Origin: Enterobacter oligotrophicus
GTDB lineage: Bacteria; Pseudomonadota; Gammaproteobacteria; Enterobacterales; Enterobacteriaceae
DNA length: 64,000 bases
Direction of reading: 5' to 3'
Assembly (NCBI RefSeq): GCF_009176645.1
Contig: NZ_AP019007.1
Location: forward strand, 1,736,001-1,800,000
The notes under the pieces are model-generated. The model saw only the letters and a list, made by a program, of their open reading frames with translations. It made no database searches and was not told the DNA's origin. This document shows, one piece after another, positions 17,659-36,677 of the stretch (positions are counted from its first letter, which is position 1; each line of letters starts with the position of its first letter). A program made the translations under genes and the position numbers.

Positions 17659-17766
17659 CAGGATGAATTATAGGGAGGTTCTGGTTAGCTAATATCAATC
17701 CCGCAAGGAATTAACAGTTTTCAGAACATGAGATTTTAGCCGCCCTGCGTCTCCTGTAGTGCAGAT

Positions 17767-19439: not shown

Positions 19440-20041
19440 GGATTCACTCTCATTGTGTCGATAACATGGATTGCTCCGCCCTCGTAAGCGGTGCCGCCGG
19501 AAATAATGGTTTCATTGATATACGGATAGATCGTGATTTCTTCGCCGGTATAAGTGGCAGCGCCCACAAAATACGGTCCGCTGGTCTGCAGGTTGATGGA
19601 CATTCCGATCAGATGGCGGCTACACGGTTTGGCGTCACCGATCAGCCGCTCCAGCTCCAGATAGGTTTCTTCCGTAATACCCTGATCCTGCACGCCAATA
19701 TCCAGGCGAAACGTGCCCGGTTGTTCTCCGGTCTGCCACCACTCAATAATGCGGATCAGGAAACCGAACGGCTCCACCACGCGCCGCACTGCGCTGGTTG
19801 TCCCCTTATGCTGATGGATATAGAAAGCATCCTGCACCACGCGGCGCTTGACGCTCTCCGTCCAGCTTTCGTCCCAGCGGTCAACGGAAAACGCCCACGC
19901 CAGATACGGCAGAAAGATGACCGGACATGTTGCCGGGTTCCATAAATCACGCAGCGACACCTGCAGATCGGAAATCCCACTGCACGTCTGCGCCAGTCGG
20001 CGCTCAAGCGGTGATGAACCAGGCGGCAACAGGCTATTCAT
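19436..20041 (-). CDS. I: Phage tail protein gpI (baseplate wedge)
   Basis: 201 residues (P2 gpI 176). P2 gpI family: LPPGSSPLERRLAQTCSGISDLQVSLRDLWNPATCPVIFLPYLAWAFSVDRWDESW at residues 4-60. The C-terminal part is probably the fibre-docking segment. Overlaps J by 8 bases and H by 4. Confidence 0.95.
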   Translation of the reverse strand: MNSLLPPGSSPLERRLAQTCSGISDLQVSLRDLWNPATCPVIFLPYLAWAFSVDRWDESWTESVKRRVVQDAFYIHQHKGTTSAVRRVVEPFGFLIRIIEWWQTGEQPGTFRLDIGVQDQGITEETYLELERLIGDAKPCSRHLIGMSINLQTSGPYFVGAATYTGEEITIYPYINETIISGGTAYEGGAIHVIDTMRVNP

Positions 20042-20942: not shown

Positions 20943-21288
20943 TGTCTGCTCCTGTAGTTACCGAAAGGGAAACCGGCGCGCCGTTGTTGCGCTGCCCGGT
21001 AAGCTCAACCACCATGGAGCCGTCAAAATTGCTGCTGATGGTGATGGAATCCAGCGTAAGCCGTGGCTCCCAGCGACTCAGCGCCACATAGACCGCAGAC
21101 ATTACCTGCAGGCGCAGTGCCGGGTTCTGCGGCTGGTCAATCAGGGCGGACAGCAGGGAACCATATTCCCGACGGGCAATCCGGCTGCCCTGCGGCGTCA
21201 GCAGAATATCCCGCACTGACTGGCGCAGATGGTCCGTATCAGTAATGGCCTTGCCGTTGCCCTGGCTCATGCCGATATACAGCGTCAT
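20929..21288 (-). CDS. W: Baseplate protein gpW (gp25-like)
   Basis: 119 residues (P2 gpW 115). gp25-like lysozyme-fold wedge protein: GMSQGNGKAITDTDHLRQSVRDILLTPQGSRIARREYGS at the N-terminus, the conserved core of the family. Start overlaps the V stop by 4 bases. Confidence 0.97.
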   Translation of the reverse strand: MTLYIGMSQGNGKAITDTDHLRQSVRDILLTPQGSRIARREYGSLLSALIDQPQNPALRLQVMSAVYVALSRWEPRLTLDSITISSNFDGSMVVELTGQRNNGAPVSLSVTTGADNGSD

Positions 21289-21863
21289 ACCGGACCTCCT
21301 GACGTATCGCCGCCGGACTTAACGCCGGTGTGACCGTGTTTATCCACCACGATCCCGTTAGAACTCATCGCACCGCCGCCCTGGGTGACGCCGCCATTGA
21401 TCACCACATCGCTGTTAATGCGCGTGGAGTCAGCCTCCACCACAAACTCACTGGTTTTCAGGGTGATATTGTCAGCCGCCTCGATCACCATGGATTTAAT
21501 GCCTTTGACGTGCCAGCGCCCGGTGGCAGGCTCGTACTCAAACCAGCCCCCGTCCGGGTATTCCGTCACACAGCCGTCCACGGAATCCGACGGCGGCGCA
21601 AACTGATTGGAGTAAATGGCAGGCAGCGCAAAGGCGGTTTCAAGGTTCCCGCCCATACTCAGCACCACCACCTGTTCATCCGGCGACGGGCACCACCAGG
21701 TGCGGCCGCCTCCGGCCCGCAGCGTCAGCCAGTTAATCCAGTTAGTTTCAAGCTCGCCAACCTTTACCCGGCACAGCCAGTTTTCCCGGTCCACTTCGGT
21801 CACGGTGCCTGTGCGGATCAGGTTGGTGATAAGGCGCATGATTTCGGTCAGTTGTGCATTCAT
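21285..21863 (-). CDS. V: Baseplate spike gpV
   Basis: 192 residues (P2 gpV 211). Membrane-piercing spike: OB-fold N-terminal domain (residues 15-95, GTVTEVDRENWLCRVKVGELETNWI), then a beta-helix and a C-terminal apex with the HGHTGV motif. The His-x-His of this apex binds iron in P2 and phi92 spikes. First gene of the V-W-J-I-H operon; an Ogr box lies 46 bases upstream. Confidence 0.96.
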   Translation of the reverse strand: MNAQLTEIMRLITNLIRTGTVTEVDRENWLCRVKVGELETNWINWLTLRAGGGRTWWCPSPDEQVVVLSMGGNLETAFALPAIYSNQFAPPSDSVDGCVTEYPDGGWFEYEPATGRWHVKGIKSMVIEAADNITLKTSEFVVEADSTRINSDVVINGGVTQGGGAMSSNGIVVDKHGHTGVKSGGDTSGGPV

Positions 21864-21908
21864 ATCGAAAGGTTGCCATCAGAGGGAAAAGGGAGGCAGC
21901 ACGGGCGC

Positions 21909-21928
21909 TTGTGCCAGCGGTGGCACAA
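21909..21928 (-). promoter_or_regulatory. Ogr box of late promoter PV
   Basis: TTGT-N12-ACAA; the inner bases GCCAGCGGTGGC extend the dyad (TTGTGCCA...TGGCACAA, 8-base perfect arms). Centred about 55 bases upstream of the V start region, overlapping the gap between S and V. Confidence 0.8.
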
Positions 21929-21931
21929 AGA

Positions 21932-22378
21932 TCACCCCGCCAGCCAGCGCAGCAGGGTGTCACGGGTGATGGTTTCCACTTCATCATTCACGCCCAGCAG
22001 GCGGCGCTCTGCGTAGCGGACCTCCGGGCCTTTGCGGCTGACGCGATCTCGCAGGCCGTAATGGTGAACGCGGGCAATGCGCTGCACTTTTCCGTCAAAC
22101 CGCACACTGGCGGAGTCCGCGGTGGCGGCGGTTTTCATGTATTTGGTGGTGCGAAGTTTTGCAAACATCTGGCGCTTGATGCGGCCCTTTTTGCTACGGG
22201 CCGTTACCCGGCGCGGCTCGTAGCCGCTCCCGTCCGGGTTTCGCTGCAGCCTGATATTTTGCTGTTGAGTCCGGCGCAGCTGTTGCGCCAGTTGCCGCAT
22301 CATACGGCTGCGCGCGGCAGGTTCCAGATTCGCCAGCAACGCCGTCAGCCAGTCATCCACCCTCTGCAGTTCATCCAC
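21932..22378 (-). CDS. S: Tail completion protein gpS
   Basis: 148 residues (P2 gpS 150). Virion morphogenesis family: MDELQRVDDWLTALLANLEPAARSRMMRQLAQQLRRTQQQNIRLQRNPDGSGYEPR at the N-terminus, and the C-terminal VHHYGLRDRVSRKGPEVRYAERRLLG. Needed for tail maturation. Overlaps R by 8 bases; last gene of the capsid-lysis operon before the PV Ogr box. Confidence 0.96.
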   Translation of the reverse strand: MDELQRVDDWLTALLANLEPAARSRMMRQLAQQLRRTQQQNIRLQRNPDGSGYEPRRVTARSKKGRIKRQMFAKLRTTKYMKTAATADSASVRFDGKVQRIARVHHYGLRDRVSRKGPEVRYAERRLLGVNDEVETITRDTLLRWLAG

Positions 22379-22802
22379 GTTTCACCGTCCACATTTCTTC
22401 GGGTTCGTCCGGCTCCGGCACTGCTTCAACGCTCGACACGCTACCGTCAGTGCTGACCAGCACGCGCTCCGTCAGTTGCAGGTTCATGCTGATATCGCAT
22501 ACATCGTTGCGCAGAATATCCACTTCAAAGGTGAACAGTTTTTCGCGCAAATCCGGGTTATAGATAGCATCCGGCTGGCTGGTACTGAGCCACAGCAGGA
22601 CTGGAGCCATCAGCAGATTCTGGTCGCCGCTGAAATCCTCGATCACCACGTTCAGGGTGTAGCGGTATTCCCATGACATGGAGCTGGCCCCGGTTGCCAC
22701 CAGTGAGCCGTTATCAACGAAAAGGTGCATCTTGTCCGGGTTGTCGCGGACATAGGCAACCGCTTTATTCAGGGCGCTGCGTAAGGACTGCGGTTTGTTC
22801 AC
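22371..22802 (-). CDS. R: Tail completion protein gpR
   Basis: 143 residues from a GTG start at 22802, giving the conserved N-terminus (V/M)NKPQSLRSALNKAVAYVRDNPDKMHLFVDNG of P2 gpR (155 aa). Contains DFSGDQNLLMAPVLLWL and NLQLTERVLV. Needed for tail completion. Its 5' part overlaps the 3' end of lysC by 38 bases. Confidence 0.95.
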   Translation of the reverse strand: MNKPQSLRSALNKAVAYVRDNPDKMHLFVDNGSLVATGASSMSWEYRYTLNVVIEDFSGDQNLLMAPVLLWLSTSQPDAIYNPDLREKLFTFEVDILRNDVCDISMNLQLTERVLVSTDGSVSSVEAVPEPDEPEEMWTVKRG

Positions 22803-23049
22803 TGTCTCGCTCCTGACACGCAATAATCGTGTCCACTTTGTCAGCACATACCGCCCAGGCGGCCTCGGTTTCATCCAGCGCCGTATTCAGATCGCCGTTA
22901 TTGCGCGGCGCTGACCTTTCCAGACGGCATTGCGTCACTCTGGGACAGCCACTCACGGTAAGCTGCACCTCCGGCGAGGGCCGGACGCTCCCGCAGCCGG
23001 ATAATGTCAGCAGGCAAAGGAGTGTCAGCCCAGCGGCGTAAATCCTCAT
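22765..23049 (-). CDS. lysC: Outer-membrane spanin lipoprotein LysC (o-spanin)
   Basis: 94 residues from ATG 23049 (a GTG at 23055 is the alternative). Signal peptide with lipobox LTLSGC (cleavage before Cys), then a short periplasmic domain with further Cys residues. It is read in a different frame of the 3' part of lysB and extends beyond it, the nested/overlapping spanin arrangement of P2. With LysB it disrupts the outer membrane at the end of lysis. Confidence 0.9.
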   Translation of the reverse strand: MRIYAAGLTLLCLLTLSGCGSVRPSPEVQLTVSGCPRVTQCRLERSAPRNNGDLNTALDETEAAWAVCADKVDTIIACQERDSEQTAVLTQRPE

Positions 23050-23326
23050 TTTCACGTTTCAGTTCCTCGATCCGGTGCTGGCGGCTGCGCAGCAGTGCGG
23101 TTGTCTGTTCCGCAGCTGCATAAAGCCGCGTTTGCTCCCGGCTGTTGGTTTCGGTCAGAATGGACAGACCGATCAGCTGGCTGTTTTTCTTCGTCAGCTC
23201 CTGCGTTTTTCTTTTCAGCGCCGCGCCCTGCGTCTCGATGGTGTGGCTGGCATTGTTAAGCCGCCACGACTGCCAGCCCAGCAGCGCCAGCATCAGAACC
23301 AGGATTACCGCCAGCTCGCGCGTCAT
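22898..23326 (-). CDS. lysB: Inner-membrane spanin LysB (i-spanin)
   Basis: 142 residues (P2 LysB 141). N-terminal membrane anchor (LAVILVLMLALLGWQSW, residues 5-21) and a long periplasmic coiled coil (residues 30-95), then a Pro/Arg-rich tail (WADTPLPADIIRLRERP). Starts in a 4-base overlap with the lysozyme stop and shares 152 bases with lysC in another frame. Confidence 0.93.
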   Translation of the reverse strand: MTRELAVILVLMLALLGWQSWRLNNASHTIETQGAALKRKTQELTKKNSQLIGLSILTETNSREQTRLYAAAEQTTALLRSRQHRIEELKRENEDLRRWADTPLPADIIRLRERPALAGGAAYREWLSQSDAMPSGKVSAAQ

Positions 23327-23838
23327 GCCCCTGCCCCTTTAAGACACCAGGCAAGCTCACGTGCGCGCCTGTTTTCCAGCCCTTTACTCCTTTGACCGTT
23401 TACATAAATCCAGCGGGGGAGCTGGTTGCACGCCTGCCACCATTGCTGGCGATTGATGTAAGAAACCATTGTTGACCGGCAGATTGCCCCCGTTCCGACA
23501 TTGAAACCGATACTGATCAGGGCATCGTAAACATGCTGAGGTGGCTTAACCTGCAGGCAGGCTTCAATCCTTTTTTCCGTCAGCAACACGTTACTTATCA
23601 GCCCCTGCGCGGCCTGTCGCTCCGTTATGGTTTTGCCCGGCACCACCCCGGACGTATTGCCGATCCCGTCAGTCCAGACCCCGGCGCTGCACTGGTATGG
23701 CTGCAAACGGCATCCTTCGAAATCAGCAATCAGTTTCAGTCCCTCAACGGAGGTATGAAGCGACTGAAAGCCCGGCAGCGTGGCGGCAATCGCCAGTACC
23801 GCGCCGACCAGGCAACGCTTAACGATTGAAGGATTCAT
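23323..23838 (-). CDS. SAR endolysin (phage lysozyme), gene K position
   Basis: 171 residues, glycoside hydrolase family 24. The N-terminal 25 residues form a weakly hydrophobic SAR anchor with Cys9 (KRCLVGAVLAIAATLPG). Catalytic Glu41 is followed by Cys50 and Thr56, the Glu-x8-Cys-x5-Thr triad of P1 Lyz rather than Glu-x8-Asp-x5-Thr; Cys43 is also present. This cysteine set (9, 43, 50) is that of P1 Lyz. There a 43/50-type disulfide blocks the active site until the SAR cysteine, released from the membrane, swaps partners. P2's own K is a different kind of lysin, so this is a module exchange. Holin gene overlaps by 20 bases. Confidence 0.93.
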   Translation of the reverse strand: MNPSIVKRCLVGAVLAIAATLPGFQSLHTSVEGLKLIADFEGCRLQPYQCSAGVWTDGIGNTSGVVPGKTITERQAAQGLISNVLLTEKRIEACLQVKPPQHVYDALISIGFNVGTGAICRSTMVSYINRQQWWQACNQLPRWIYVNGQRSKGLENRRARELAWCLKGAGA

Positions 23839-24034
23839 ATTCCCCCCTGGATATTCTGCCGTCCCGCAGTAGCTGGTAGGCTTTCCAGCGTAAATAACAG
23901 GTCACCGCTGCAGTAATAATGCCCAGCGCAAGACCGGTAATGGTCGATACATCTTTAAGAGACAAGTCTCCGAGCCATGCCAGAAGCAGGGCAACGCAGT
24001 AAGTAATAAAGGCGCTGATTCGTTCAAGCGTCAT
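23819..24034 (-). CDS. Phage holin
   Basis: 71 residues with two hydrophobic segments (residues 5-22 and 30-48, the second TGLALGIITAAVTCYLRW) and a charged C-terminal tail (RDGRISRGEYESFNR). Small class II-like holin ahead of the endolysin gene, the place of gene Y in P2. Pinholin behaviour would fit with the SAR endolysin but cannot be read from the sequence. Confidence 0.88.
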   Translation of the reverse strand: MTLERISAFITYCVALLLAWLGDLSLKDVSTITGLALGIITAAVTCYLRWKAYQLLRDGRISRGEYESFNR

Positions 24035-24037
24035 AAT

Positions 24038-24241
24038 TCAGTCCCATAACTGGACAGTCTGCGCAGTGGTTGACGCCATAATTTCCGGCAGTTCCACCTG
24101 CAGCCCGTGCGGTAAAAATGGGCCGTACTCAGCCAGCCCCGGATTTGCCTGCAGAACCTGCTCAGTGACACCCTGCGTGCGCCCGTAATGACGCCAGCAA
24201 AGCGCGTCCACCGTGTCATACTGATGCGCACGCACTTTCAT
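24038..24241 (-). CDS. X: Tail protein gpX
   Basis: 67 residues, as P2 gpX. LysM-like tail protein: DTVDALCWRHYGRTQGVTEQVLQANPGLAEYGPFLPHGLQVELPE. Overlaps the L stop by one base (TAATG). Confidence 0.95.
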   Translation of the reverse strand: MKVRAHQYDTVDALCWRHYGRTQGVTEQVLQANPGLAEYGPFLPHGLQVELPEIMASTTAQTVQLWD

Positions 24242-24705
24242 CAGATAAGCTCCACCGTGCAGTGCGGTGCATCCTGCACCCGGCTGATGGCCCAGCGGGC
24301 ATCACGCCACAGATCGCCGCTGACCTCCGCCAGTTCCTCCCCTCGCTTTACCCCGGACGCCGTGGCGTCATAATCCTGGTAACGCTCATTGAGCACGGCG
24401 CGCGCCCAGCAATACACGGCGTTGAGGTAGTGCTGGATGCGCTCGCTTTTTCCGTCCAGCATTTCCGCCGGCACGTCAGCCAGATCCCGGTAGCCCAGCA
24501 TCTTCTGGCGGTTGCGGAAGTCGTACAGCTCAGCGTTAACTTCGGAAATGGCTGTCAGCGCAACCTGCCGGAGACGGGGCTGCGTCACCGTGCCGTCAGT
24601 GCGCATCACACTGCGAAATTCCGACAGGTCCACATCAGGCCAGAACGGCGTATTTTTAATAACGTCCGCCTGTTCCGGTGCCTGTTCTGGCGCAATAAAC
24701 TGCAT
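24241..24705 (-). CDS. L: Head completion/stabilisation protein gpL
   Basis: 154 residues from ATG 24705 (P2 gpL 169). I chose this start because AGGAG lies 8 bases upstream and the conserved text begins MQFIAPEQ; a further in-frame ATG at 24768 would add 21 residues. Contains NTPFWPDVDLSEFRSVMRTDGTVTQPRLRQVALTAISEVNAEL. Connects neck and capsid. Confidence 0.93.
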   Translation of the reverse strand: MQFIAPEQAPEQADVIKNTPFWPDVDLSEFRSVMRTDGTVTQPRLRQVALTAISEVNAELYDFRNRQKMLGYRDLADVPAEMLDGKSERIQHYLNAVYCWARAVLNERYQDYDATASGVKRGEELAEVSGDLWRDARWAISRVQDAPHCTVELI

Positions 24706-24798
24706 GCGGCTTTCTCCTGAAATAGTGGGCGGTGGACGGGGTTTTGATGTGGCAGTGCCTTTCGCCATCCCGTGCCGCCCGTGCGCGGGGCACGTTCG

Positions 24799-25449
24799 TT
24801 AGCGGCTGTCACTGCGCAATCTGCGCTCCAGCTGCTGCTTTTCTTTTTTCACGCCGCAGCGGGGATCGAGCTGCAGCGCATGGGTAAGGTGATTAAGGGC
24901 AGAGGCCGGGTTGCTATCGGTCAGTACCGCGCCGATGGCTTTGTGCAGGCGTGCCCGGGACTGGTCCGGCATATCCAGATCGGTAGTCAGGTCCAGCGTC
25001 TGCAGGAGCAGATCGGCATCAAAACCAGTTGCGGCCAGCAGCGCGCTTTGTGCGGCATCCGCCATTTCTTCCGCCAGAACGGTCTGCACGTTACGGTTGC
25101 CCAGCGGCATCACCCAGCCATGGCGCAGCGCATGACGCCCGATTTCCAGCGCACCGGCATAATCACCGGCATCGATACGCCACAGCATCACGTACATCAG
25201 CACGTCATCCTGCTGCGCACCTCCGACAGCCAGCACGCCCTCCGCCCAGACGGCATACTTCGGCAGAAGCTCCACCTTGATTGCCGCCTTTTTCACGGTG
25301 GACTGGATACCCTTAAGGCGGCGGCGGTCTTCTGCCAGCTGCAGCAGCATCAGGTCATAGCCGGCCGCATGGCGAACACTGCCGCCCTCCCGGGCGGCCT
25401 GTTCGGCCTGAATGCGCAGGCGGTGCTGCCGTGCGGGACTCAGGCTCAT
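24799..25449 (-). CDS. M: Terminase small (endonuclease) subunit gpM
   Basis: 216 residues (P2 gpM 247). Cuts at cos together with gpP in this family. SPARQHRLRIQAEQAAREGG at the N-terminus, LLPKYAVWAEGVLAVGGAQQDDVLMYVMLWRIDAGDYAGALEIGRHALRHGW in the middle. Ends with a Lys/Arg-rich coiled tail. Confidence 0.95.
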   Translation of the reverse strand: MSLSPARQHRLRIQAEQAAREGGSVRHAAGYDLMLLQLAEDRRRLKGIQSTVKKAAIKVELLPKYAVWAEGVLAVGGAQQDDVLMYVMLWRIDAGDYAGALEIGRHALRHGWVMPLGNRNVQTVLAEEMADAAQSALLAATGFDADLLLQTLDLTTDLDMPDQSRARLHKAIGAVLTDSNPASALNHLTHALQLDPRCGVKKEKQQLERRLRSDSR

Positions 25450-25452
25450 GCG

Positions 25453-26514
25453 TTACTCCCCACCTTCCGGCGCAGCTGGCGCGGTGAAGTCACCGATAGT
25501 GATGTTTTCGACCAGGGCCGCGCAGCGGTAGTCTTCAATCACGTACGCTTCGTTGACGGATTCAAAGTTCTCAATCCGGTCACGTTTCGGGTTGTCGATA
25601 ACAGAACGGCGGCGGGTGTCCTCCTGCCAGTAAATGGAGAGGTTATCCAAACGGGTGATCAGCAGGGCATTGGCCGGGAAGAACGGCGCACGCACCGCCT
25701 GCAGGCCGCCCATGCGTTTCTGGCTGATAATCAGATCGGCGGCAATTTTCTCGCTGTTTTCCTGCTCTTTGTTAACCAGCGGGAAATACTTGTCAGACAG
25801 CAGCTCGCGGCCGCAGATAACAACCAGCTCGTCATCATCCTGGTAAACCACGTCGATCAGCTCGTTAACCGCATCCATCACCACGGCGTCCAGGTTGACA
25901 TAGTCGCCGCCCTTGCCCACCTTCACCGCGCCTGCCGTGGTGGTGCCGTCCTGGGTGGTACTGCCCATAACGTGGTCCGGCGCGTCTTCGCGGATTTTCT
26001 GCAGCCAGCCCTTATTCACGTCCTGCAGCAGTGGGTTTTCAGCGCGGTTAGAGGTTTTGGCACGCTTCACACCGTTAAAGCCGATCATGATGCGGTCCAG
26101 CGCCTGACGCTTTATGATGGCGTTACGGATACGCACCTGGAAGTCCTGGAATTTCGCCCACAGGTCCAGCTTTGCGTAGGTCAGCACCGTGTCAAAGTTG
26201 GTCTGTTCGCATTTATATTCCACGTCCTCCATCAGCATCGGATCGGTAGGTTCGCGCTCTTTGGTGGTGGTGTCGGTGGTTCCGGCAATGGTGGAGCCAA
26301 CGCCCAGGCCAAGCAGCTGGCCGGACTGCTCATCAACAGGCGAGACATTAATGAGCGTCAGGAAAGCGGCGGACTGCTGGATCTGGTCTTCCAGCGTCTG
26401 CTGCACGGACGGCTCAACGGTGAACTTGCTGGAAAGTTCTTCAACTTCCACCAGGTTCAGGCGCGCCAGCTGCTGCAGGTAGGCGTTAAAGGCAAAGCGA
26501 GTTTTCTTTTTCAT
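25453..26514 (-). CDS. N: Major capsid protein gpN
   Basis: 353 residues (P2 gpN 357), HK97-like fold. Starts MKKKTRFAFNAYLQQLARLN. The mature N-terminus in P2 is made by gpO cleavage about 30 residues in; a similar SKFTVEPSVQQTLEDQIQ segment is present. ICGRELLSDKYFPLVNKEQENSEKIAADLIISQKRMGGL is the conserved C-terminal half. Between M and O. Confidence 0.97.
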   Translation of the reverse strand: MKKKTRFAFNAYLQQLARLNLVEVEELSSKFTVEPSVQQTLEDQIQQSAAFLTLINVSPVDEQSGQLLGLGVGSTIAGTTDTTTKEREPTDPMLMEDVEYKCEQTNFDTVLTYAKLDLWAKFQDFQVRIRNAIIKRQALDRIMIGFNGVKRAKTSNRAENPLLQDVNKGWLQKIREDAPDHVMGSTTQDGTTTAGAVKVGKGGDYVNLDAVVMDAVNELIDVVYQDDDELVVICGRELLSDKYFPLVNKEQENSEKIAADLIISQKRMGGLQAVRAPFFPANALLITRLDNLSIYWQEDTRRRSVIDNPKRDRIENFESVNEAYVIEDYRCAALVENITIGDFTAPAAPEGGE

Positions 26515-26530
26515 CGGGTTTTATGCTCCA

Positions 26531-27364
26531 TCAGCAATTGGTCAGGTTGCCTGCCGGTGCGTCACCGCCCGGCGCGCGCTGGCGGTAATCTTTACGGCTG
26601 TCTTCACGGCTCAGTTGCTGCTGAAGCTCGGCAAAGGCGGCCTGCTGCTCCTGCAGGGAGGATTCAAGCTCAGAAATGCGCGCGTCCTGGTCGGATAGGG
26701 ATTTATCGGTGCGCTCGCTCAGGTTCTGCTGCTCGGTGGCGACCAGCTCAACGGCTTTGTGCACGTCTGAAAAACGCGCATCGTCGGTCTGCTCTTTTTT
26801 GGTAAACAGCGCGGATACGCGGGCAAAGAGGGAGGGCTTTTCGTCCTGGTTTTCTTCCAGTTCAATCAGCGTTTCTTCAGCGGCGGTAAATAGGTTTTCA
26901 GGGCTTAGCTTGCGGTTAGCCAGCGGGTTCTGTTTGGCGGTGGCACTGAAAGCCAGCATCTCGGTGCCCAGGCTCGCCGGATCGTCAGTGGCAGCCAGGC
27001 CGACAAGGTAGGCCTTGCCGGTGTCAGCAAATTTCGGGCTGACTTCCATAGAGGTGAATTGCTTTTGCCACTGCTTAATCAGACTAATCAGGTCAGGCGA
27101 CGGGTTAATTTCGGCGTACAGCGCCATTTTCCCTTTTAATGGCCCTTCCGTGATTTCTTCGGCGGTTAAGCCGGTGACATGCCCATAACGCTTAAACGTG
27201 CCATCCGGCGAATAGCCTTTAATGTGCTCAAGGTTAATTTGCGCCGTATACACCGCAGGGTTGTAGCTGGCCGCCATTTGTACCAGCCATTCGCGCTGGA
27301 TTTCGCGCCCGTCGGTGGTGGCACCTTCCACCCCGATGCGGAAACGCTTTGCTTTCACTGTCAT
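26531..27364 (-). CDS. O: Capsid scaffold and maturation protease gpO
   Basis: 277 residues (P2 gpO 284). N-terminal serine protease with a triad at Asp18, His47 and Ser105 (aligned with P2 Asp19, His48, Ser107), and a C-terminal coiled-coil scaffold (residues 190-255, LSDQDARISELESSLQEQQAAFAELQQQLSREDSRKD). Cleaves gpN, the portal and itself during capsid maturation. First gene of the leftward operon, divergent from P. Confidence 0.96.
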   Translation of the reverse strand: MTVKAKRFRIGVEGATTDGREIQREWLVQMAASYNPAVYTAQINLEHIKGYSPDGTFKRYGHVTGLTAEEITEGPLKGKMALYAEINPSPDLISLIKQWQKQFTSMEVSPKFADTGKAYLVGLAATDDPASLGTEMLAFSATAKQNPLANRKLSPENLFTAAEETLIELEENQDEKPSLFARVSALFTKKEQTDDARFSDVHKAVELVATEQQNLSERTDKSLSDQDARISELESSLQEQQAAFAELQQQLSREDSRKDYRQRAPGGDAPAGNLTNC

Positions 27365-27441
27365 GAGCCGTGCTCCGTTAGAAAAAACTTACTGGAGCCT
27401 TATGTTTGCGGTGATGGGGGAAGTGAAACAACGCGCGGCGC

Positions 27442-27461
27442 TTGTACGGTCAGCCACACAA
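27442..27461. promoter_or_regulatory. Ogr box between divergent O and P genes
   Basis: TTGT-N12-ACAA centred at 27451.5. Placing transcription starts 55 bases away gives about 27397 for O (start codon 27364) and about 27507 for P, so a single symmetric box could serve both divergent late promoters. Confidence 0.78.
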
Positions 27462-27506
27462 ACCGCAGCCGGGGAAAGCCGCCGGGCAAGGCCGTATGTT
27501 TGGGCC

Positions 27507-29273
27507 ATGAACACGACAATGACCCCCGCAGACCTCGATCCCCGTCGGCAGGCCATGATGCTGTACTTTCAGGGATACCGCGTAGCCCGCATTGCAGAAA
27601 TGCTGGGCGAGAAAGTTGCAACCGTGCACAGCTGGAAAAAGCGCGACAAGTGGGGTGAGTATGGGCCGCTGGATCAGATGCAGCTCACCACCGCCGCGCG
27701 CTACTGCCAGCTCATTATGAAGGAGCAGAAAGAAGGGAAAGACTTCAAGGAAATTGACCTGCTGGCGCGCCAGTCAGAGCGTCATGCCCGCATCGGCAAA
27801 TTTAACGACGGCGGCAACGAGGCCGACCTTAACCCCAACGTGGCGAACCGCAACAAAGGCCCACGCAAGCCACCGGAAAAGAACGTATTCAGCGACGAGC
27901 AGACCGAAAAGCTGCAGGAGATTTTCCACAGCTCGATGTTCGCCTATCAGCGCCACTGGTGGGATGCGGGCAACCGTCACCGCATCCGTAACCTGCTCAA
28001 GTCCCGCCAGATTGGCGCGACCTTCTTCTTTGCCCGGGAGGCGCTGATTGACGCCATCACCACCGGGCGCAACCAGATTTTCCTTTCCGCCAGTAAGGCC
28101 CAGGCGCACGTCTTTAAGCAGTACATCATCGACTTTGCAAAAGAGGTGGATGTAGAGCTGAAAGGCGATCCGATGACGCTCAGCAACGGCGCGTGCCTGT
28201 ACTTCCTCGGCACCAACGCCCGCACAGCGCAGAGCTACCACGGCAACCTGTACCTGGATGAATATTTCTGGATACCGAAATTCCAGGAACTGCGCAAGGT
28301 GGCCTCCGGTATGGCCATTCACAAGAAATGGCGGCAGACCTACTTTTCAACCCCATCCAGCCTGACCCACAGCGCCTATCCGTTCTGGTCCGGCGCGCTG
28401 TTCAATCGGGGCCGCGCCAAATCGGACAAGGTGGATATTGACCTGACCCACGGCAATCTGGCCCCGGGCCTGCTTTGCCCGGACGGTCAGTACCGCCAGA
28501 TCGTCACAGTGGAGGATGCGGTGCGCGGCGGCTGTAACCTATTCGACCTGGACCAGCTGCGGATGGAGTACAGCCCTGACGAATACCAGAACCTGCTGAT
28601 GTGCGAATTCATTGACGATCTGGCGTCAGTGTTCCCGCTGAGCGAGCTGCAGGCGTGCATGGTGGACAGCTGGGAAGTCTGGTCTGACTTTCAGGCGCTG
28701 GCACTGCGCCCGTTTGGCTGGCGCGAAGTCTGGATCGGCTATGACCCGGCGAAGGGTACGCAGAACGGCGACAGTGCCGGGTGCGTGGTGGTAGCACCAC
28801 CCACGGTGCCGGGCGGCAAATTCCGCATTCTGGAGCGGCACCAGTGGCGGGGGATGGACTTCCGCGCCCAGGCTGACGCCATTAAAAAGCTGACCCAGCA
28901 GTATAACGTGACCTATATCGGCATCGACTCGACCGGCGTCGGCCACGGCGTCTATGAGAACGTTAAGGCGTTCTTCCCGGCGGTCCGGGAGTTTGTCTAC
29001 AACCCCAACGTAAAAAACGCCCTGGTGCTTAAGGCATACGACATTATCAGCCACCGGCGCCTGGAGTTTGACGCCGGGCACACCGACATTGCGCAGTCCT
29101 TTATGGCAATCCGCCGCGCCACCACCGCCAGCGGGAACCGCCCAACCTACGAAGCCAGCCGCAGCGAAGAAGCCAGCCACGCAGACCTGGCCTGGGCAAC
29201 GATGCACGCACTGTTTAACGAACCGCTGCAGGGCGAGGCCGCCAATACCAGCAACATTGTGGAGATTTTTTAA
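27507..29273 (+). CDS. P: Terminase large (ATPase) subunit gpP
   Basis: 588 residues from ATG 27507 (P2 gpP 590); open frame continues upstream but the conserved start is MTPADLDPRRQAMMLYFQGYRVARIAEMLGEKVATVHSWKKRD, a DNA-binding HTH. ATPase motifs: the Walker A-like SRQIGATFFFA and the Walker B segment NLYLDEYFW. Nuclease motifs: WIGYDPAKG and GIDSTGVG. Packages DNA from cos. Overlaps Q by one base (TAATG). Confidence 0.96.
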   Translation: MNTTMTPADLDPRRQAMMLYFQGYRVARIAEMLGEKVATVHSWKKRDKWGEYGPLDQMQLTTAARYCQLIMKEQKEGKDFKEIDLLARQSERHARIGKFNDGGNEADLNPNVANRNKGPRKPPEKNVFSDEQTEKLQEIFHSSMFAYQRHWWDAGNRHRIRNLLKSRQIGATFFFAREALIDAITTGRNQIFLSASKAQAHVFKQYIIDFAKEVDVELKGDPMTLSNGACLYFLGTNARTAQSYHGNLYLDEYFWIPKFQELRKVASGMAIHKKWRQTYFSTPSSLTHSAYPFWSGALFNRGRAKSDKVDIDLTHGNLAPGLLCPDGQYRQIVTVEDAVRGGCNLFDLDQLRMEYSPDEYQNLLMCEFIDDLASVFPLSELQACMVDSWEVWSDFQALALRPFGWREVWIGYDPAKGTQNGDSAGCVVVAPPTVPGGKFRILERHQWRGMDFRAQADAIKKLTQQYNVTYIGIDSTGVGHGVYENVKAFFPAVREFVYNPNVKNALVLKAYDIISHRRLEFDAGHTDIAQSFMAIRRATTASGNRPTYEASRSEEASHADLAWATMHALFNEPLQGEAANTSNIVEIF

Positions 29274-30304
29274 TGAGTGAACACGACGCCCTGACCAGCA
29301 CCGCGCCAGTGCAGGAAGCCGCGCAGCAGAAGAACACAACTCACGCCGAAGCGTTCAGCTTTGGCGATCCGATCCCGGTACTGGACCGCCGCGAACTGCT
29401 GGACTACGTGGAATGCGTGCAAATGGATAAGTGGTATGAGCCGCCCGTGAGCTTTGACGGGCTGGCCCGCACCTACCGCGCCGCCGTGCATCACAGCTCG
29501 CCGATTGCCGTTAAGCGCAACATTCTGACCAGCACGTTTATCCCACACCCGCTGCTGAGCCAGCAGGCATTCAGCCGCTTCGTGCAGGACTATCTGGTGT
29601 TTGGTAACGCCTATCTTGAGAAACGGACGAACCGGCTCGGCGGCATTCTGTCGCTGGAACCATCACTGGCGAAATACACCCGCCGCGGGATCGACCTTGA
29701 CACTTACTGGTTTGTGCAATATGGCATGACCACACAGCCCTATGAGTTCACCAGAGGCAGTATCTTTCACCTGATGGAACCGGACCTGAACCAGGAGATT
29801 TACGGCCTGCCGGAATATCTGTCCGCCATCCCCTCCGCCCTGCTGAACGAGTCCGCTACGCTGTTCCGCCGGAAGTATTATATCAACGGCAGCCACGCGG
29901 GTTTTATCATGTATATGACCGACGCCGCGCAGAACCAGGAGGACGTGAACAACATCCGCCAGGCCATGAAAAGCGCCAAAGGGCCGGGCAACTTCCGCAA
30001 CCTTTTTATGTACTCACCCAACGGCAAAAAGGACGGCATTCAGATCATCCCGCTGTCAGAGGTGGCGGCAAAGGATGAGTTTTTGAACATCAAGAACGTG
30101 AGCCGCGATGACATGATGGCAGCGCATCGCGTGCCGCCGCAGATGATGGGAATTATGCCGAGTAATGTTGGAGGATTTGGTGATGTGGAGAAGGCGAGTA
30201 AAGTCTTTGTCCGTAATGAACTAATGCCACTTCAAAAAAGTTTAGAGGAGATTAATAACTGGCTTGGCATCCAAGTAATTAAATTCGATGATTACAGTTT
30301 GTAG
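29273..30304 (+). CDS. Q: Portal protein gpQ
   Basis: 343 residues, P2 gpQ 344. Portal (connector) of the PBSX/P2 family: SFGDPIPVLDRRELLDYVECVQMDKWYEPPVSFDGLARTYRAAVHHSSP at the N-terminus, KRNILTSTFIPHPLLSQQAFSRFVQDYLVFGNAYLEKR, and VPPQMMGIMPSNVGGFGDVEKA near the end. In P2, cos follows directly; here the three-gene cassette is interposed. Confidence 0.97.
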   Translation: MSEHDALTSTAPVQEAAQQKNTTHAEAFSFGDPIPVLDRRELLDYVECVQMDKWYEPPVSFDGLARTYRAAVHHSSPIAVKRNILTSTFIPHPLLSQQAFSRFVQDYLVFGNAYLEKRTNRLGGILSLEPSLAKYTRRGIDLDTYWFVQYGMTTQPYEFTRGSIFHLMEPDLNQEIYGLPEYLSAIPSALLNESATLFRRKYYINGSHAGFIMYMTDAAQNQEDVNNIRQAMKSAKGPGNFRNLFMYSPNGKKDGIQIIPLSEVAAKDEFLNIKNVSRDDMMAAHRVPPQMMGIMPSNVGGFGDVEKASKVFVRNELMPLQKSLEEINNWLGIQVIKFDDYSL

Positions 30305-30325
30305 AGTACAAGGTGGCAACGCCAC

Positions 30326-30871
30326 CTATTTATTTAAAAACGTATACTCTTGTGCAGGAGTAATCCGCGCGGAAAACACAGGCATTAGTTTGTTTCTAGC
30401 CATAATATAATATGACCTTTTTTGATCATTTTTTATACACACCAGCATCGCATGAGCATCATTACCTTCAACAGGAGCATATTTAGTTGAAAATAAAGCT
30501 ACCCCATTTTCATCCAAAACACTGTTTACTTTTGGGTGTTCTACTTCTGAAAAGAATACATTTTTCCTGGTCCTATCGTCCGGACCATTCTTTTCTTGAG
30601 CTCTATTCTTCTGGATATGAACTCTTTTCAAAACAACAGTTTCGCTTGCTAAGCGTTTAATATCCAAACTTAAACCTCTATCTTTGAGATCAGAAGTTGG
30701 AATAGCGTTATTTTCCAATTGATTAAGCTCCCTATTATAATGCTCAGAGTCAAAAAGCGTTCTGATGAGCACATCATCATTTAATATATCTTTAACTTTC
30801 TGGCCCCGAACTTGATCACCACGACAAAAGCTCCAGCATTTTTGTAGAAAAGCCTTTATCGATGGAAACAT
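30326..30871 (-). CDS. Unknown protein, third gene of a low-GC prophage cargo cassette
   Basis: 181 residues from the third of three consecutive ATGs (30871), the one best spaced from GAGGA; the gene overlaps the previous one by about 56 bases. No signal peptide or membrane segment. A GLSLDIKRL segment around residue 66 and a HAMLVCIKND segment near the C-terminus recall small partner proteins seen beside the DGW-type proteins of the neighbouring gene; this is memory-based and weak. Very AT-rich compared with Q and the replication gene. Ends 21 bases from the Q stop, tail to tail. Function unknown; probably acts with its two upstream neighbours. Confidence 0.75.
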   Translation of the reverse strand: MFPSIKAFLQKCWSFCRGDQVRGQKVKDILNDDVLIRTLFDSEHYNRELNQLENNAIPTSDLKDRGLSLDIKRLASETVVLKRVHIQKNRAQEKNGPDDRTRKNVFFSEVEHPKVNSVLDENGVALFSTKYAPVEGNDAHAMLVCIKNDQKRSYYIMARNKLMPVFSARITPAQEYTFLNK

Positions 30872-31478
30872 CATCATATTCCTCTTCCCCATTGAGTTTA
30901 TTCTTGTAGTAATAGGAGTATTCACCCTCACCAAAGAATGCCATATCGATTAAGTAGCCATCTGTATTCCAGTAAAAGTTTACCTCACCATCTGCTACAG
31001 CACGAATCTTAGGTGCCGTCAAAGAATGTTTTTCAATCACATTAATTAAAATACTTTTAGCTTCATTGATTGCCTCAGCATTGGGAGCTACTGAGTCGGT
31101 CCCTAACCAGCCATCCCGCAAAAATCTAAAACTCTCTAATATATTAATCAAGCCAGATTTTTCAAAAAGCAAAAATTGTCTATCACTTAATAACTTAGCG
31201 AACAGATTACCACTTGACAACTCCGAGAAATAGTTATCCACCTTAACATGACCAATGAAACTATTAGTCGCACTGAGTATTTCTCGAGTTATTTTACTTT
31301 CAGCTTTTTTAGGATTAAGTAAACGATCATACTCCGCAAATCCGTGAATGAGATCCATACCAACGGTTAATCCACGGACATATGTTTTGGTACCTTCCGT
31401 TAAATTAGAACTACCAAAAAAACCACCTTTACCAGACTCAAAAGATGTCGGATGTATATTTACACAAACACTAGTCAT
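30816..31478 (-). CDS. Unknown protein, second gene of the cargo cassette
   Basis: 220 residues from ATG 31478, whose ATG overlaps the stop of the preceding gene (ATGACTAG, 8 bases), so the two are translationally coupled. Soluble. Residues 119-180 hold a recognisable module: FLRDGWLGTDSVAPNAEAI, then a helix, then DGEVNFYW, like proteins with a DGWDGYG-x-P signature found next to toxin-antitoxin and defence-like genes. That family has no assigned biochemistry that I know. Strongly AT-rich. Confidence 0.78.
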   Translation of the reverse strand: MTSVCVNIHPTSFESGKGGFFGSSNLTEGTKTYVRGLTVGMDLIHGFAEYDRLLNPKKAESKITREILSATNSFIGHVKVDNYFSELSSGNLFAKLLSDRQFLLFEKSGLINILESFRFLRDGWLGTDSVAPNAEAINEAKSILINVIEKHSLTAPKIRAVADGEVNFYWNTDGYLIDMAFFGEGEYSYYYKNKLNGEEEYDDVSIDKGFSTKMLELLSW

Positions 31479-32223
31479 ATTCCGCCCCCAATAACTCCAG
31501 CGCTTCATCCGTTAAGAATGAAAAGAAATATTCCTTAGTTATCATATGTAATTCATCAAGTCCACTTGACAATTCACTTTCAAATGAAGCCAAGTCTTTT
31601 GAAATTACATTCCTAATACAATCGACATCAATAAGGAAACCTTCCCTACTTTTGATTGAAGGGTTTGCAAATTCTGCTTTAGCACTTCCAGCCATTTGAA
31701 TGACAACAACACTATCAGCATTGAATATCTCGGTCCTTGCTTGAGATGTATTAAAATCCAATCTAAAGTTACCCATTGATAAATTGACATTCAACATTTT
31801 ATCAAGCGAAGAACAATTTTCAGGTTCGATAATATCTATATACTTCAATGAGAACCTTACTACTCTATTTATAAGTGAGTAATTTATAACCTTTCTGTAA
31901 ACATCCATTATAGCAAATTTGAACTTATCCCATCCTTCATAAGGAACATTGTAGATTAGCTGTAAAACCTTATCACCAATGTGAACCTGAAATTTTTCAG
32001 TTTCAAGAATAACTAATGGAGCATAAATAAAATTAGGATCAGTATTTCTAATACTTTCTGGTATTTCAGAAACAGGTGTTTTGGTGATAGTAGCCCCTGG
32101 CATGTGATTAAATAGCAAGCCGGGTAAAATACTCGAAAGCGGTACAACGCTTTCAAATCTCATTTCAAATATAACACCTACTAATAGGTCTTTCCTTAAC
32201 CGTGTAGGAAGTTTTCTGGTCAT
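31471..32223 (-). CDS. TIGR04255-like protein, first gene of the cargo cassette
   Basis: 250 residues from ATG 32223 (GAGGATGCA in front). It resembles the sporadically distributed TIGR04255 family: LLVGVIFEMRFE near the start, then a beta segment, then IGDKVLQLIYNVPYEGWDKFKFAIMDVYRKV and VVRFSLKYIDIIE. No catalytic motif is visible. AT-rich; preceded by its own promoter (32256-32283). First of three overlapping genes inserted between Q and cos. Function unknown; the setting suggests host-benefit cargo such as phage exclusion. Confidence 0.8.
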   Translation of the reverse strand: MTRKLPTRLRKDLLVGVIFEMRFESVVPLSSILPGLLFNHMPGATITKTPVSEIPESIRNTDPNFIYAPLVILETEKFQVHIGDKVLQLIYNVPYEGWDKFKFAIMDVYRKVINYSLINRVVRFSLKYIDIIEPENCSSLDKMLNVNLSMGNFRLDFNTSQARTEIFNADSVVVIQMAGSAKAEFANPSIKSREGFLIDVDCIRNVISKDLASFESELSSGLDELHMITKEYFFSFLTDEALELLGAEYD

Positions 32224-32283: not shown

Positions 32284-32344
32284 CTACAAGTATTTGCTAA
32301 TGTGTTCAGTTTAACATCTTAGGCAGAGAAAGCCACTGCGCGCG

Positions 32345-32363
32345 CTCGTATCCCCGCCACGCC
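32345..32363 (-). other. cos cohesive-end site
   Basis: On the minus strand GGCGTGGCGGGGATACGAG. From memory, phage 186 and P2 have 19-base cohesive ends of the form GGCGTGGCGGGGAAAGCAT and GGCGAGGCGGGGAAAGCAC. The first 13 bases agree with 186. It lies between Q and A, as in these phages. The surrounding 32284-32571 stretch has no gene and carries further inverted repeats (CATGCACTTGCATG at 32387-32400), probably terminase-binding. Confidence 0.8.
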
Positions 32364-32571: not shown

Positions 32572-32760
32572 CTAACTGGGGAGATCCATGGAACGGTTGT
32601 ACTCATGAGTACGGATTTTCGCCATCAACTCATCAGTCAGCTCCGAAACCCACTGGATAGCAAGCCGCTTCTCTTCATCATCGCACTCACTAGCCGCTAC
32701 AAGCTTCACAAAAAAATCAATGCGCTGGAGTTTCAACGACTCCAAAAAATAGTCCTGCAT
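32572..32760 (-). CDS. Small conserved-looking phage protein, function unknown
   Basis: 62 residues from ATG 32760, which has a strong GGAGGGG ribosome site 3-9 bases upstream. Acidic, helical (MQDYFLESLKLQRIDFFVKLVAASECDDEEKRLAIQWVSELTDELMAKI). Lies on the replication side of cos. I do not recognise the family. Confidence 0.6.
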   Translation of the reverse strand: MQDYFLESLKLQRIDFFVKLVAASECDDEEKRLAIQWVSELTDELMAKIRTHEYNRSMDLPS

Positions 32761-32897
32761 CTTCCCCTCCAATCAAAACAACTGTATATAAACACAGCAT
32801 ATAATTAACCCTCAAATGTAAATTGTTTTTTCTATGTTTCAAACAGATGGCTCGAATGCGATGCTTTACAAGAGACGACGGAATGAGGAAAAAATCG

Positions 32898-33125
32898 ATG
32901 CGTAAAGCATGTATTGAACTTATGGCAGGAACTAACGCGGCCTGCCTGGTTGCAGGTGAACTAGGCACTGGCCGCTGCCTTTACTTGGTTGTAGTGATGG
33001 AAGACATATTTGGTAAACCTACAACAGAACAATGGCTAAAATCCTTAAGGCTCTGCGAGGCCAAGGCGGCTGAACTGAAGTATGAAGTTGCCCGCATTCG
33101 CGGTAAGAATCTGGCTGGCTTGTAA
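32898..33125 (+). CDS. Small hypothetical phage protein opposite gene A
   Basis: 75 residues from ATG 32898 (GAGGA 8 bases upstream); ATG 32883 is an alternative. Begins MRKACIELMAGTNAACLVAGELGTGRCLYLVVVMEDIFG and ends with a basic helix (EAKAAELKYEVARIRGKNLAGL). Convergent with gene A, with only 19 bases between the stops. It sits at the end of the genome where P2 carries tin and old, but shows no likeness to either. Confidence 0.5.
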   Translation: MRKACIELMAGTNAACLVAGELGTGRCLYLVVVMEDIFGKPTTEQWLKSLRLCEAKAAELKYEVARIRGKNLAGL

Positions 33126-33144: not shown

Positions 33145-35496
33145 TTAGAACCACTGGCGCCATTTATCATCTTCCTGCAACCGCTGATTCCGATAAAACA
33201 GGCGCATCCCTGCTCCAGACGGGATACTACCGCCACGCAAAAGCAGATCAACTTCCGCATTGCTTGCATCAAACCCTCTGGAACTCAGTTCTGCCTGAAG
33301 CTGCAGGCGCTGCTGCTCCGAAATACTCTGTTTGTATGCTTTTTTCCGCTTCGGTTTTATCAGTCTTAACCTGGTTGTCAGCTCCCGGCGTTCCTTCTGG
33401 CCCATATTGTGTAGGTAATCCTGCAGTTCCTTCTCGTTCATGATTTTAATATCTGGCAGATTCCCCCCTCTCTGGTTCAAATTTTCAACAGGGGGACAGT
33501 TATTGCCACGAGTCCAAGGGGCGCAAGCGCCCTGGTCGGCTGCCGCCTCCTGAACATCAACGGCCTTACGAACCTTTTTCCACTTCACCACGTGCGTGCA
33601 AATCTTGCCCTCTGCAATCGGGGACCAGATGCCATAGATACGGATACCGTGATCGCCGTAGGTGCTCGGCTCGTCGTTAAGCTCATAAGCCGTGCGGACA
33701 AGGTGATGTTTGCAGGGAACCAGCACACCGCCCTGCTTCATGATGTAGGTGGCAAAGCAGCCCGCATCAGCTGCCGCCAGTACCGCATCCAGACGCGGGT
33801 TATCCAGTACCGGTGCTCCCGCCTTGCGTTCGCCCTGCACTCTCGCCGCCTGACCAGCCAGCAAGCGCAGCTCGCGGTATGCCTGACGCCCCGGAATACC
33901 AAAGAAACGAAATTGCTGGACACGGTGCAGTGACGCCCAGGCGCTGACATGCTCGGCGCTGTCACGCAGTGATCTGCCGGTTTCTTTGCTGATTTCTTTA
34001 GCCAGCCCGCGCCCGTCGATGTTCTTGCTGATGTATTTAGCGATATAGCTGGTCGGTGTGCCCTTGCGCGGGTTGATAAGCTCGGACTTGAAACGCGGAC
34101 CCGTATTGTTGCCCAGCTCCTCGCGGTCTTCGCGGATGGCAAACTTGCGCAGCATCGCAGTGATGGAACGGCGGTCTTTTTTGCGCATAAAGCACAGAAG
34201 ATGCCAGTGCACGGTGCCGTCATGGTGCGGCTCTGCCACACGGACGCCATACCAGCGAAGACCCGCCTTGTGCATTGCCTTGCGGAAAGCGGCGAACGTA
34301 TCAACCAAATAGTCACTGCTCTGCCGGACGGTGGCGCTGGTCCACTTCGGATTAGGTCTGCCGTTGTTGAGGGTTGCGTGGAAGCGTGACGGGCAGGTGA
34401 TGGTATAGAACACTGCGCAGTCTCCGCGCATTTCCGCTATCAGCTCCAGTCCCTTAACACAGGCCATCATTTCATTACGGCGGTGTGCCGGGTTGCTGTT
34501 GCTGGCATTCACCACGTCTTCCATGTCCAGCGTGTCACCGTCTTCGTTGACCAGCTCATGTGAGCGGAAGAACTCCAGCGATTTGCGGCGCTGCTCGCGC
34601 TTGTGGATCACGGCTTCATAGCTGACATACGGGGACGCTTTTTTGTTGACCAGGCAGACAGCACGCAGCTGTTCCTCCCGCCACTCGCAGCGCATCTGCC
34701 ACAATTTGCGATACCACCAGTCCGCGCACAGCATCCGCGCCAGCGACGGTGGGATCAGTTCATAGGGCACCGGCTTGCGTCGACGCTTTTTGCGGCGTAA
34801 CTGCTCAAACGCAGGCGGGATGATCTCAAGGCGCATCGCCTCTGCTGCAACCCTTTCCCATGCCTGGCGGATTTCTTCTGGTTTTACATCATCGCTGACA
34901 AACAAATCACCGCAGGCCGCATCGAGACACATGCTCATATGTGCCGCAACCAGCGTGGAAAGGCGCTTGACCTGATCCTGATTCATTTCAGGCAGTACCA
35001 GCAGCCCCTCCAGCCCGTCATGGCTCGCCATGAACCGGAAAGAGGCAGACACCTGACTGTCACGCACGCGCTCCAGCCGCTCAAGACACGGCCTGATTGT
35101 TTCGCGCAGGTAGCGGGAATAGGCTTTTGCTCTGCCCAGGCTATGGAAATATTTAATCCGCTCCAGCAGAGGCTTGCTGATATGGGACGGCATGGCGTTA
35201 ACGTCAGCCAGAATGACCAGATCGGGATTAAAACGCTGCTGCTCGCGCGCCATTTTGGCACGACTAATCAGCCTGTCCTGCTCCATTTCGCACTGGACAG
35301 GATCACGGGATTCATTGAAGAAATAGCGTTCCCAGACCTCATCGCTCAGCGCCTCACGGCGCAGCTGCTTTTGCTCGTTATCCGCAGCGTAAAGAGCGAT
35401 CAGGTTTGAAAGCGCAGACTCCGGCGCAACTTCCGCCGGGTCTACATACGGGTTTACCGCTTTTTTAGGTGTGTTCCATGGAAATGCGGCTTTCAC
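33145..35496 (-). CDS. A: Replication endonuclease gpA (HUH, rolling circle)
   Basis: 783 residues (P2 gpA 761). Nicks the origin inside its own gene and starts rolling-circle replication. HUH motif His430-Trp-His432 in the segment [15 protein letters not shown], and two catalytic tyrosines Tyr484-x3-Tyr488 in [11 protein letters not shown], as the Tyr450/Tyr454 pair of P2. The nick site should therefore also lie within this gene. Start overlaps the cytosine methyltransferase stop by 4 bases. Confidence 0.96.
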
Positions 35497-36677
35497 AACA
35501 TTTCCCCGTAGCCATCAAGAAAAGCGCCGATAAACTCTGCTGCAACTTGTGGAACTATCGCGTTACCGTAGCCGCGCAAACGTCCCACTCTGGCGGGAAT
35601 CCCATCAGCCAGCGGGAATGTGCCGGATTCAACCGGCCTGAATCTCCCATCCCTGTATCCAATCCAGTCAGCATCTTTCCAGAAGCAGTTATTCTGATTG
35701 CACAAGTGAGATAGGTTGCCTGGCTTGGCAGGTCGTCCAGTTTTCCCTTTCTCTCCATTTCTTTCTGGCATCCCTGAAAGCTGCGACTCCCCTTGCTGCC
35801 ATCCACTGCGCGAGGTGTCGCCCATGTCGCCAATCGTGCCGCTCCGCCCAATGTTGTCCCTCTCGCTGGATGCATTGCTGCAGCCCCCATCCCGGCAACC
35901 TGATTGTTGTCTATGGTCGTGACTGTAGGCCACGGAGCCAAACCCTGCTCCGTCGCATAATCCAGCCGGTCGAACGTCCGATCCTTCCCGTCTTTCCGAA
36001 TGACGGTTTTTCCACTCCCCTTGAAATCGTTCGCAGTAGGAGTGGGCCATGCAGCCAGAATTACTACATCCTGTAGGTTCTGTTGCCTCCCCGCCTCTTT
36101 TCTTCTGATAACTTTCAGCCAGTCCGTGTAGCCGTTCACCACTCCATTCTGGGCGCAAGGGCTGGGCCATGCTGACCGCACCAAAATAAACCCTGTCACG
36201 CTTGTGCGGGGCACCGACGCTTGCCGCTGGCAATACAGCCGCCCCGCAGGCGTAATTTTCTCTTTCCAGCTCATCGAATAGATCATCGAGCCAGTGCTTT
36301 CCAATCGCTGCTGCAACTTGTTCGCCAAAGAGGATTGGAGGGTGGCACTGAGTGACAAGCCGCATGAAAGTTGGTGCGAGATGTCGCTCATCGAGCTGAC
36401 CGAGTTGTTTTCCTGCTGAACTAAATGGCTGGCATGGCGGGCTTCCTGTCCAGCAAGCAAAGTTGTCTGGGACGCCTGCGAGGCGTAATGCGAATGACCA
36501 TCCGCCAATTCCGGCGAAGAAATGGCATTGCGTGAACCCTTTGAGGTCTGCTGCTGTAACATCCGAAATACTCCTGTCGTCAACAATTCCAGGTGCAATT
36601 AGCCCTGCATCAATCAGATTTCGCAGCCATTGAGCCGCAAACGGATCAAACTCGTTGTAGTAGGCCAAGGTGCTCAT
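35493..36677 (-). CDS. DNA cytosine-5 methyltransferase (Dcm-type)
   Basis: 394 residues. AdoMet motif [16 protein letters not shown] at 54-68, catalytic motif [11 protein letters not shown] with Cys82, motif VI-like LFGEQV, motif [13 protein letters not shown]. The C-terminal motifs IX-X are [25 protein letters not shown]. The variable target-recognition region (about 180-320) is rich in Gly, Ser, Asp and His, and is unusually low in hydrophobics; it coincides with a second reading frame (35555-36562). Probably self-protection of phage DNA from host restriction. Overlaps the adenine methyltransferase and gene A by 4 bases each. Confidence 0.93.
35555..36562 (-). CDS. Overlapping same-strand frame inside the cytosine methyltransferase gene
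   Basis: 335 residues from ATG 36562 (a TTG at 36598 would add 12). It is read in a different frame of the methyltransferase gene and open for 1 kb. It is not random-looking: [23 protein letters not shown], three WPTP-like motifs ([35 protein letters not shown]) and the end [16 protein letters not shown]. That set is typical of methyltransferase-associated phage proteins often annotated as hypothetical or methyltransferase subunits, which also occur as separate genes. The alternative is that conservation of the enzyme frame forces this frame to look conserved. Confidence 0.5.
   Translation of the reverse strand: MLQQQTSKGSRNAISSPELADGHSHYASQASQTTLLAGQEARHASHLVQQENNSVSSMSDISHQLSCGLSLSATLQSSLANKLQQRLESTGSMIYSMSWKEKITPAGRLYCQRQASVPRTSVTGFILVRSAWPSPCAQNGVVNGYTDWLKVIRRKEAGRQQNLQDVVILAAWPTPTANDFKGSGKTVIRKDGKDRTFDRLDYATEQGLAPWPTVTTIDNNQVAGMGAAAMHPARGTTLGGAARLATWATPRAVDGSKGSRSFQGCQKEMERKGKLDDLPSQATYLTCAIRITASGKMLTGLDTGMGDSGRLNPAHSRWLMGFPPEWDVCAATVTR

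Follow-up and report, generated by a model that had tools for sequence, protein, structure and literature searches.

A TIGR04255-headed gene trio beside the cos site of a P2-like prophage: one version of a possible modular anti-phage system with exchangeable partners

What is the role of three minus-strand open reading frames (ORFs) that lie, with overlapping ends, between the portal gene Q and the cos site of a P2-like prophage in Enterobacter oligotrophicus? They fill positions 30326-32223 of the window, i.e. the whole analyzed stretch of 64,000 nucleotides from contig NZ_AP019007.1. Gene 1 (31471-32223; 250 amino acids) encodes a TIGR04255 family protein, heads a conserved unit and is a putative sensor or regulator. 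Gene 2 (30816-31478; 220 amino acids) is a putative adaptor with a C-terminal module DGW...DGEVNFYW that is remotely related to PDC-M32A, and gene 3 (30326-30877; 183 amino acids) is a putative effector with a predicted ADP-ribosyltransferase (ART)-like fold. The reading we favor, with a little less than even confidence, is a modular anti-phage system of abortive-infection or toxin-antitoxin type, which a P2-like prophage carries as cargo in its cos hotspot and which has an ART-like effector.

Judged by sequence comparison, the trio is an ordered unit that is conserved far beyond the P2-like phage of the window. Gene 1 matches TIGR04255 over the entire model (positions 1-252 of 252) with 123.3 bits, at a curated cut-off of 30 bits; the first-pass annotation had already recognized this likeness. 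Its structure model has a pLDDT of 93.1, and it has no match in PADLOC, AbiLi included. TIGR04255 is a sporadic NCBIfam family whose model assigns no function and names no partner genes; in the loci described below it heads several kinds of multi-gene unit. Of 398 genomes sampled across the phylum, 30 have such a gene; the 14 control genomes have none. Protein searches yielded 13, 15 and 11 relatives of genes 1, 2 and 3, respectively, some of them on contigs of equal length, with Scandinavium, Enterobacter, Lelliottia, Klebsiella and Cronobacter as the named sources of close relatives. The whole trio is found on three IMG/VR contigs (two of which were examined as ORF maps), each with the cos core 140 bases before gene 1. 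At the DNA level, the cassette has no match in 50,697 phage records, nor in 5,426 E. coli genomes searched with megablast and blastn. A search with the gene 2 protein alone finds only one of 392 genomes of the family, namely the window's own.

More distant relatives were approached through the first gene. We fetched 30 TIGR04255 loci including the window (two further matches lie outside this set) and read the other 29 downstream, as well as three phage or viral loci. Taken from its earliest start codon, the ORF that follows shares up to 19 bases with TIGR04255, or comes a single base after it, in 20 of the 29. Profiles of gene 2 and gene 3, iterated separately, pick out the same 13 of these 29 loci, each match being in the expected place. 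Strong first-round matches are confined to L042 (E 2.3e-13) and L039 (1.9e-12) for gene 2 and to L039 (3.3e-12) for gene 3, where L042 reaches 0.056; the E-values of the remaining trio loci are soft, because they were reached by iteration within a small set. The gene 2 profile led to a further 11 genome loci and five new viral loci. Of these 16 loci, 14 have TIGR04255 immediately before gene 2 and 15 have gene 3 immediately after it; the misses are L056, an Acidobacteria metagenome-assembled genome (MAG) with gene 2 alone, and, for gene 1, L059, whose contig starts inside gene 2. Since L055, on a contig of equal length, is very likely the L042 locus, 15 of the 16 are independent. Their named sources are Pantanalinema (Cyanobacteria), Pseudomonas, Methylobacterium (five loci), an Arenicellales MAG, Rhizobiales and Rhizobium ecuadorense. 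A search of this kind, for the three proteins beyond phages, had been proposed in the first-pass annotation; the trio proves to be kept together as a unit, and not only in P2-like phages.

What is surprising is that, according to these comparisons, partners have been exchanged on both sides of the system. The remaining 16 of the 29 TIGR04255 loci carry another pair, called B, in four cases, a third pair, C, in six (in L033 its second gene only), and other genes or nothing recognized in six. Pair B also follows TIGR04255 in the three phage or viral loci. Neither pair resembles genes 2 and 3 at the level of profiles; in pair C, gene 2 is helix-turn-helix-like, and Pfam HTH_3 matched one of two tested. 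A tree of 34 TIGR04255 proteins (22 with the window-type pair, seven with B, five with C) requires at least five changes of pair type. A single clade for the window-type pair is rejected (p-AU 3.2e-5), and the well-supported branches alone force two changes for this pair. The six unclassified loci, the incomplete L043, L044 and L045, as well as L059, L075 and near-copies, were left out of the tree. In Pseudomonas phage Dobby (L007:1090-2786) and VW-6S (L006:3983-5644), the unrelated second and third genes behind TIGR04255 come with an 'LSNSCDI' motif and an 8-base overlap. By eye, L017 and L018 have similar proteins of 214-233 amino acids one ORF or gap after TIGR04255, perhaps a fourth kind of partner.

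On the other side, the gene 2 profile matched 20 of the same 398 genomes; it recovered eight of 14 known trio genomes and so misses distant members. The other 12 loci differ in context. In L071 (875-3342), relatives of genes 2 and 3 come after an AbiLi-like ATPase (AAA_21; AbiLi E 3.0e-77). L076 (386-2337) begins with a gene for 242 amino acids that has no match to the TIGR04255 profile, Pfam or PADLOC, followed by a gene 2 relative and a gene for 162 amino acids. A weak TIGR04255-like gene is present in L075, and no partner was identified in L072, L073 and L074. PDC-M32-like genes are found in L077-L082: in PADLOC, L082 matches PDC-M32A (1.3e-146) and PDC-M32B (9.8e-49), and the flanks of L080 match a type I methyltransferase (3.3e-69) and specificity subunit (7.1e-68). 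Type I genes were recognized by eye only in L077, L081 and L082, and none were seen in the short stretch examined of L078 and L079. The PDC-M32B-type genes match the gene 3 profile weakly (best E 0.0014; two of six not at all), and this link rests also on position and on a common Ser and His. As front genes other than TIGR04255 can also precede the gene 2-gene 3 pair, gene 1 would be an exchangeable sensor and gene 2 an adaptor. Here the first description has to be changed: the trio is not peculiar to the site between Q and cos but represents one variant of a system whose parts can be swapped.

The motif modules of genes 2 and 3 that were named earlier fall within the best conserved parts of both proteins. 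Gene 2 has one weak match in PADLOC: residues 114-208 align to positions 262-356 of the 375 of PDC-M32A (E 2.1e-7), i.e. gene 2 is no full-length member of that family. A hydrophobic stretch near the N-terminus is seen in nine of 40 gene 2 proteins, across several pair types (L042, L050-L052, L054, L006, L023, L030, L032).

Searches of Pfam, PHROGs, NCBIfam and PADLOC with gene 3 give nothing at E ≤ 1; assignment to PDC-M32B is accordingly dropped, and three other gene 3 proteins of class A have no PADLOC match at E ≤ 0.1. In a second structural comparison of its model, ranks 1-25 were all entries of the ART superfamily, at middling Z scores. The best conserved polar residues of the model lie on strands 1 and 2 and at the start of strand 5; ART catalytic residues sit on strands 1, 2 and 5 (PMC7955679). 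Counted from the ATG at 30874, Arg38 is kept in 32 of 33 sequences, Ser69 and His141 in all 33; in a wider set, the Ser is found in 47 of 47 and the His in 46 of 47. On the strength of this model, gene 3 is probably a toxin-like enzyme, and the earlier remark that no NADase motif is visible has been overtaken by it. Two points count against an active ART: neither Foldseek nor sequence profiles confirm the likeness, and a His takes the place of the usual third catalytic residue. Together with the middling Z, they would suit a defence system in which the fold is merely a common arrangement or belongs to a pseudoenzyme that acts by binding, gene 1 or gene 2 being the harmful component. We regard this as unlikely, in that a single superfamily fills the first 25 ranks and that a Ser and a His so strictly kept on strands 2 and 5 would be unusual in a pure binding protein. 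A gene for a RES-domain protein is also present elsewhere in the host chromosome, at a great distance from the window (G000:C1:4094010-4094447).

With gene 3 as an ART-like effector that acts through Arg38, Ser69 and His141, the favored anti-phage system might work as follows. The effector would be kept inactive together with gene 2, while gene 1 would sense an infection cue and control the gene 2-gene 3 pair. Infection would then free the effector, which would modify a host or phage target or consume NAD+, and phage growth would be stopped.

The position of the cassette bears on the question as well. Gene Q (29273-30304, plus strand) is convergent with the trio, and a terminator-like hairpin (30311-30327, plus strand) lies between them. 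The cos core of the prophage (32338-32363, minus strand) has no mismatch to the query, a match not once reproduced in 100 shuffles. In P2, which was read for comparison, no gene separates cosL (1-19) from Q (187-1221), so that with respect to P2 the placement of an additional cassette between Q and cos stands as first described. Its composition is indeed far from that of the phage core: the GC content is 35.3%, compared with 54.6% for Q and 57.5% for 15001-30304. The trio occupies the cos-Q slot in the window and in three close relatives. In four divergent viral contigs (L057-L060), gene 3 is closely followed, on the opposite strand, by a P2-like portal gene 55-56% identical to Q. A type B TIGR04255 unit lies between a cos-like site and the portal gene in Pseudomonas phage Dobby (Peduoviridae). 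For P2-like phages, the stretch between genes A and Q that includes cos has been described as a hotspot, with 169 systems in E. coli (PMC9122126), and a second source agrees on the site (PMC9519451). Being accessory, beside cos and between Q and A (33145-35496 in the window), the trio has the features of such cargo. Because it is conserved as a unit and lies in this hotspot, and since it recurs outside P2-like phages, it is accessory cargo and not a set of structural or late genes. The idea of an undescribed defence or lysogeny cassette is retained with regard to a conserved accessory unit, but not with regard to a trio tied to one site.

Could the cargo serve something other than defence? An addiction or toxin-antitoxin module, which would prevent loss of the prophage and have no direct anti-phage role, would also fit genes that are small, overlap and lie on mobile elements, the last of them being toxin-like by prediction. 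We find this quite improbable: three genes, the exchange of partners and the restriction, AbiLi and Mokosh genes in the neighborhood fit defence better. As for the latter, in a Pseudomonas locus (L047) the match to MkoA of Mokosh extends over 1,162 amino acids of a gene that ends 1.4 kb from the trio. The trio also lies on other mobile elements; in L046 it comes after two integrases and a DUF6262 gene, and in L055 a phage capsid gene lies 1.1 kb beyond it. A nearby defence gene is not the rule, because only two of ten scanned trio neighbors matched PADLOC, L047 and, weakly, L054. Cargo for lysogeny or host fitness, with no part in defence or killing, is very improbable in our view. Not all cargo of the P2-like hotspot scored as protective in the published assay: besides old-tin, three of eight newly cloned systems did, and others include a putative partition system and a toxin (PMC9122126). 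Yet the unit is found outside P2-like phages, and the gene 2-gene 3 module is common to loci beside defence genes.

Returning to the anti-phage reading, we propose a wider and more tentative generalization, namely that a large, undescribed class of plug-in immune systems has TIGR04255 as its shared front module. One sensor or regulator family would then be combined with at least three unrelated, swapped effector pairs, and the main pair, an atypical Arg-Ser-His ART with its adaptor, would also plug into AbiLi-like ATPases and type I restriction systems. If so, TIGR04255 and the candidate pair PDC-M32 would become parts of one modular system, gene 3 might represent a new variant of the ART active site, and P2-like phages outside E. 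coli would carry cargo that is invisible to a survey of E. coli genomes.

Several details of the locus remain to be added. The overlap of genes 1 and 2 is 8 bases, as had been stated; that of genes 2 and 3, put at about 56, is 62, 59 or 56, because gene 3 begins with three consecutive ATGs at 30877, 30874 and 30871. The first, with AGAGGA just upstream, gives the product of 183 amino acids, and the relatives P0030 and P0032 have an identical three-Met beginning. Tight overlap, which had been read as fixed stoichiometry, says nothing on that matter. The single promoter that had been assumed is upheld in part: one extended -10 promoter-like site precedes gene 1 (32283-32256, minus strand; TTGAGA, 16 bases, TATATT preceded by TG), but a scan of the whole region gives ten sites with 8.5 expected, which is not above chance. 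In a phage with an 83% identical gene 1, the -10 hexamer and five of six bases of the -35 are kept while the spacer has changed, which favors the site. By eye, the 3' end of Q (30190-30304) is AT-rich; its last residues differ from those of L004 and equal those of L002, as if the cassette had come with the end of Q. The interval between cos and A, the place of old and tin in P2, has only small ORFs (32572-32772, minus; 32823-33125, plus, phrog_9726), and a DNA methyltransferase gene (35493-36677, phrog_363) overlaps A by 4 bases.

How does the trio relate to known systems? We assign it to none of CmdTAC, PDC-M32 and AbiL. CmdTAC (PMC11618068) likewise has three genes with a predicted ART effector, a partner and a sensing component, and would be a functional parallel if our model is right; gene order and families differ, no chaperone is recognized in the trio, and the trio has no PADLOC match other than PDC-M32A, although it is not established that PADLOC contains CmdTAC models. 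With PDC-M32, the trio has in common the C-terminal module of gene 2, and in L077-L082 a PDC-M32A-type gene is followed by a PDC-M32B-type gene with the same Ser and His. In contrast, gene 2 lacks the N-terminal part of PDC-M32A, and TIGR04255 takes the front position that type I restriction genes occupy there. The link to AbiL is the ATPase of L071; the window has no such ATPase, none of its three proteins matches AbiLi, and the trio is therefore not classed as AbiL. Compared with described members of the ART superfamily (DUF952, KptA/Tpt1, DarT, RES), gene 3 differs in its Arg-Ser-His from the described triads (PMC7955679) and in having no profile match. A three-gene anti-P1 system is also reported (PMC9122126); its sequences were not compared, and the trio has no DNA match in complete E. 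coli genomes and none in PADLOC beyond that of gene 2 to PDC-M32A. For the site itself, the hotspot systems such as old and tin (PMC9122126) resemble the trio in being accessory, in their place between A and Q and in having a promoter-like site of their own. Old and tin of P2 lie on the A side of cos, the trio on the Q side, and its DNA is unmatched in the 5,426 genomes of the surveyed species. We take the anti-P1 system to be the Rst_3HP of other lists. A search of the open-access literature, which did not extend to subscription papers, supplements or newer defence databases, turned up no account of the trio. Prophage-borne modular defence is an already known kind of system, of which the trio would be an undescribed example.
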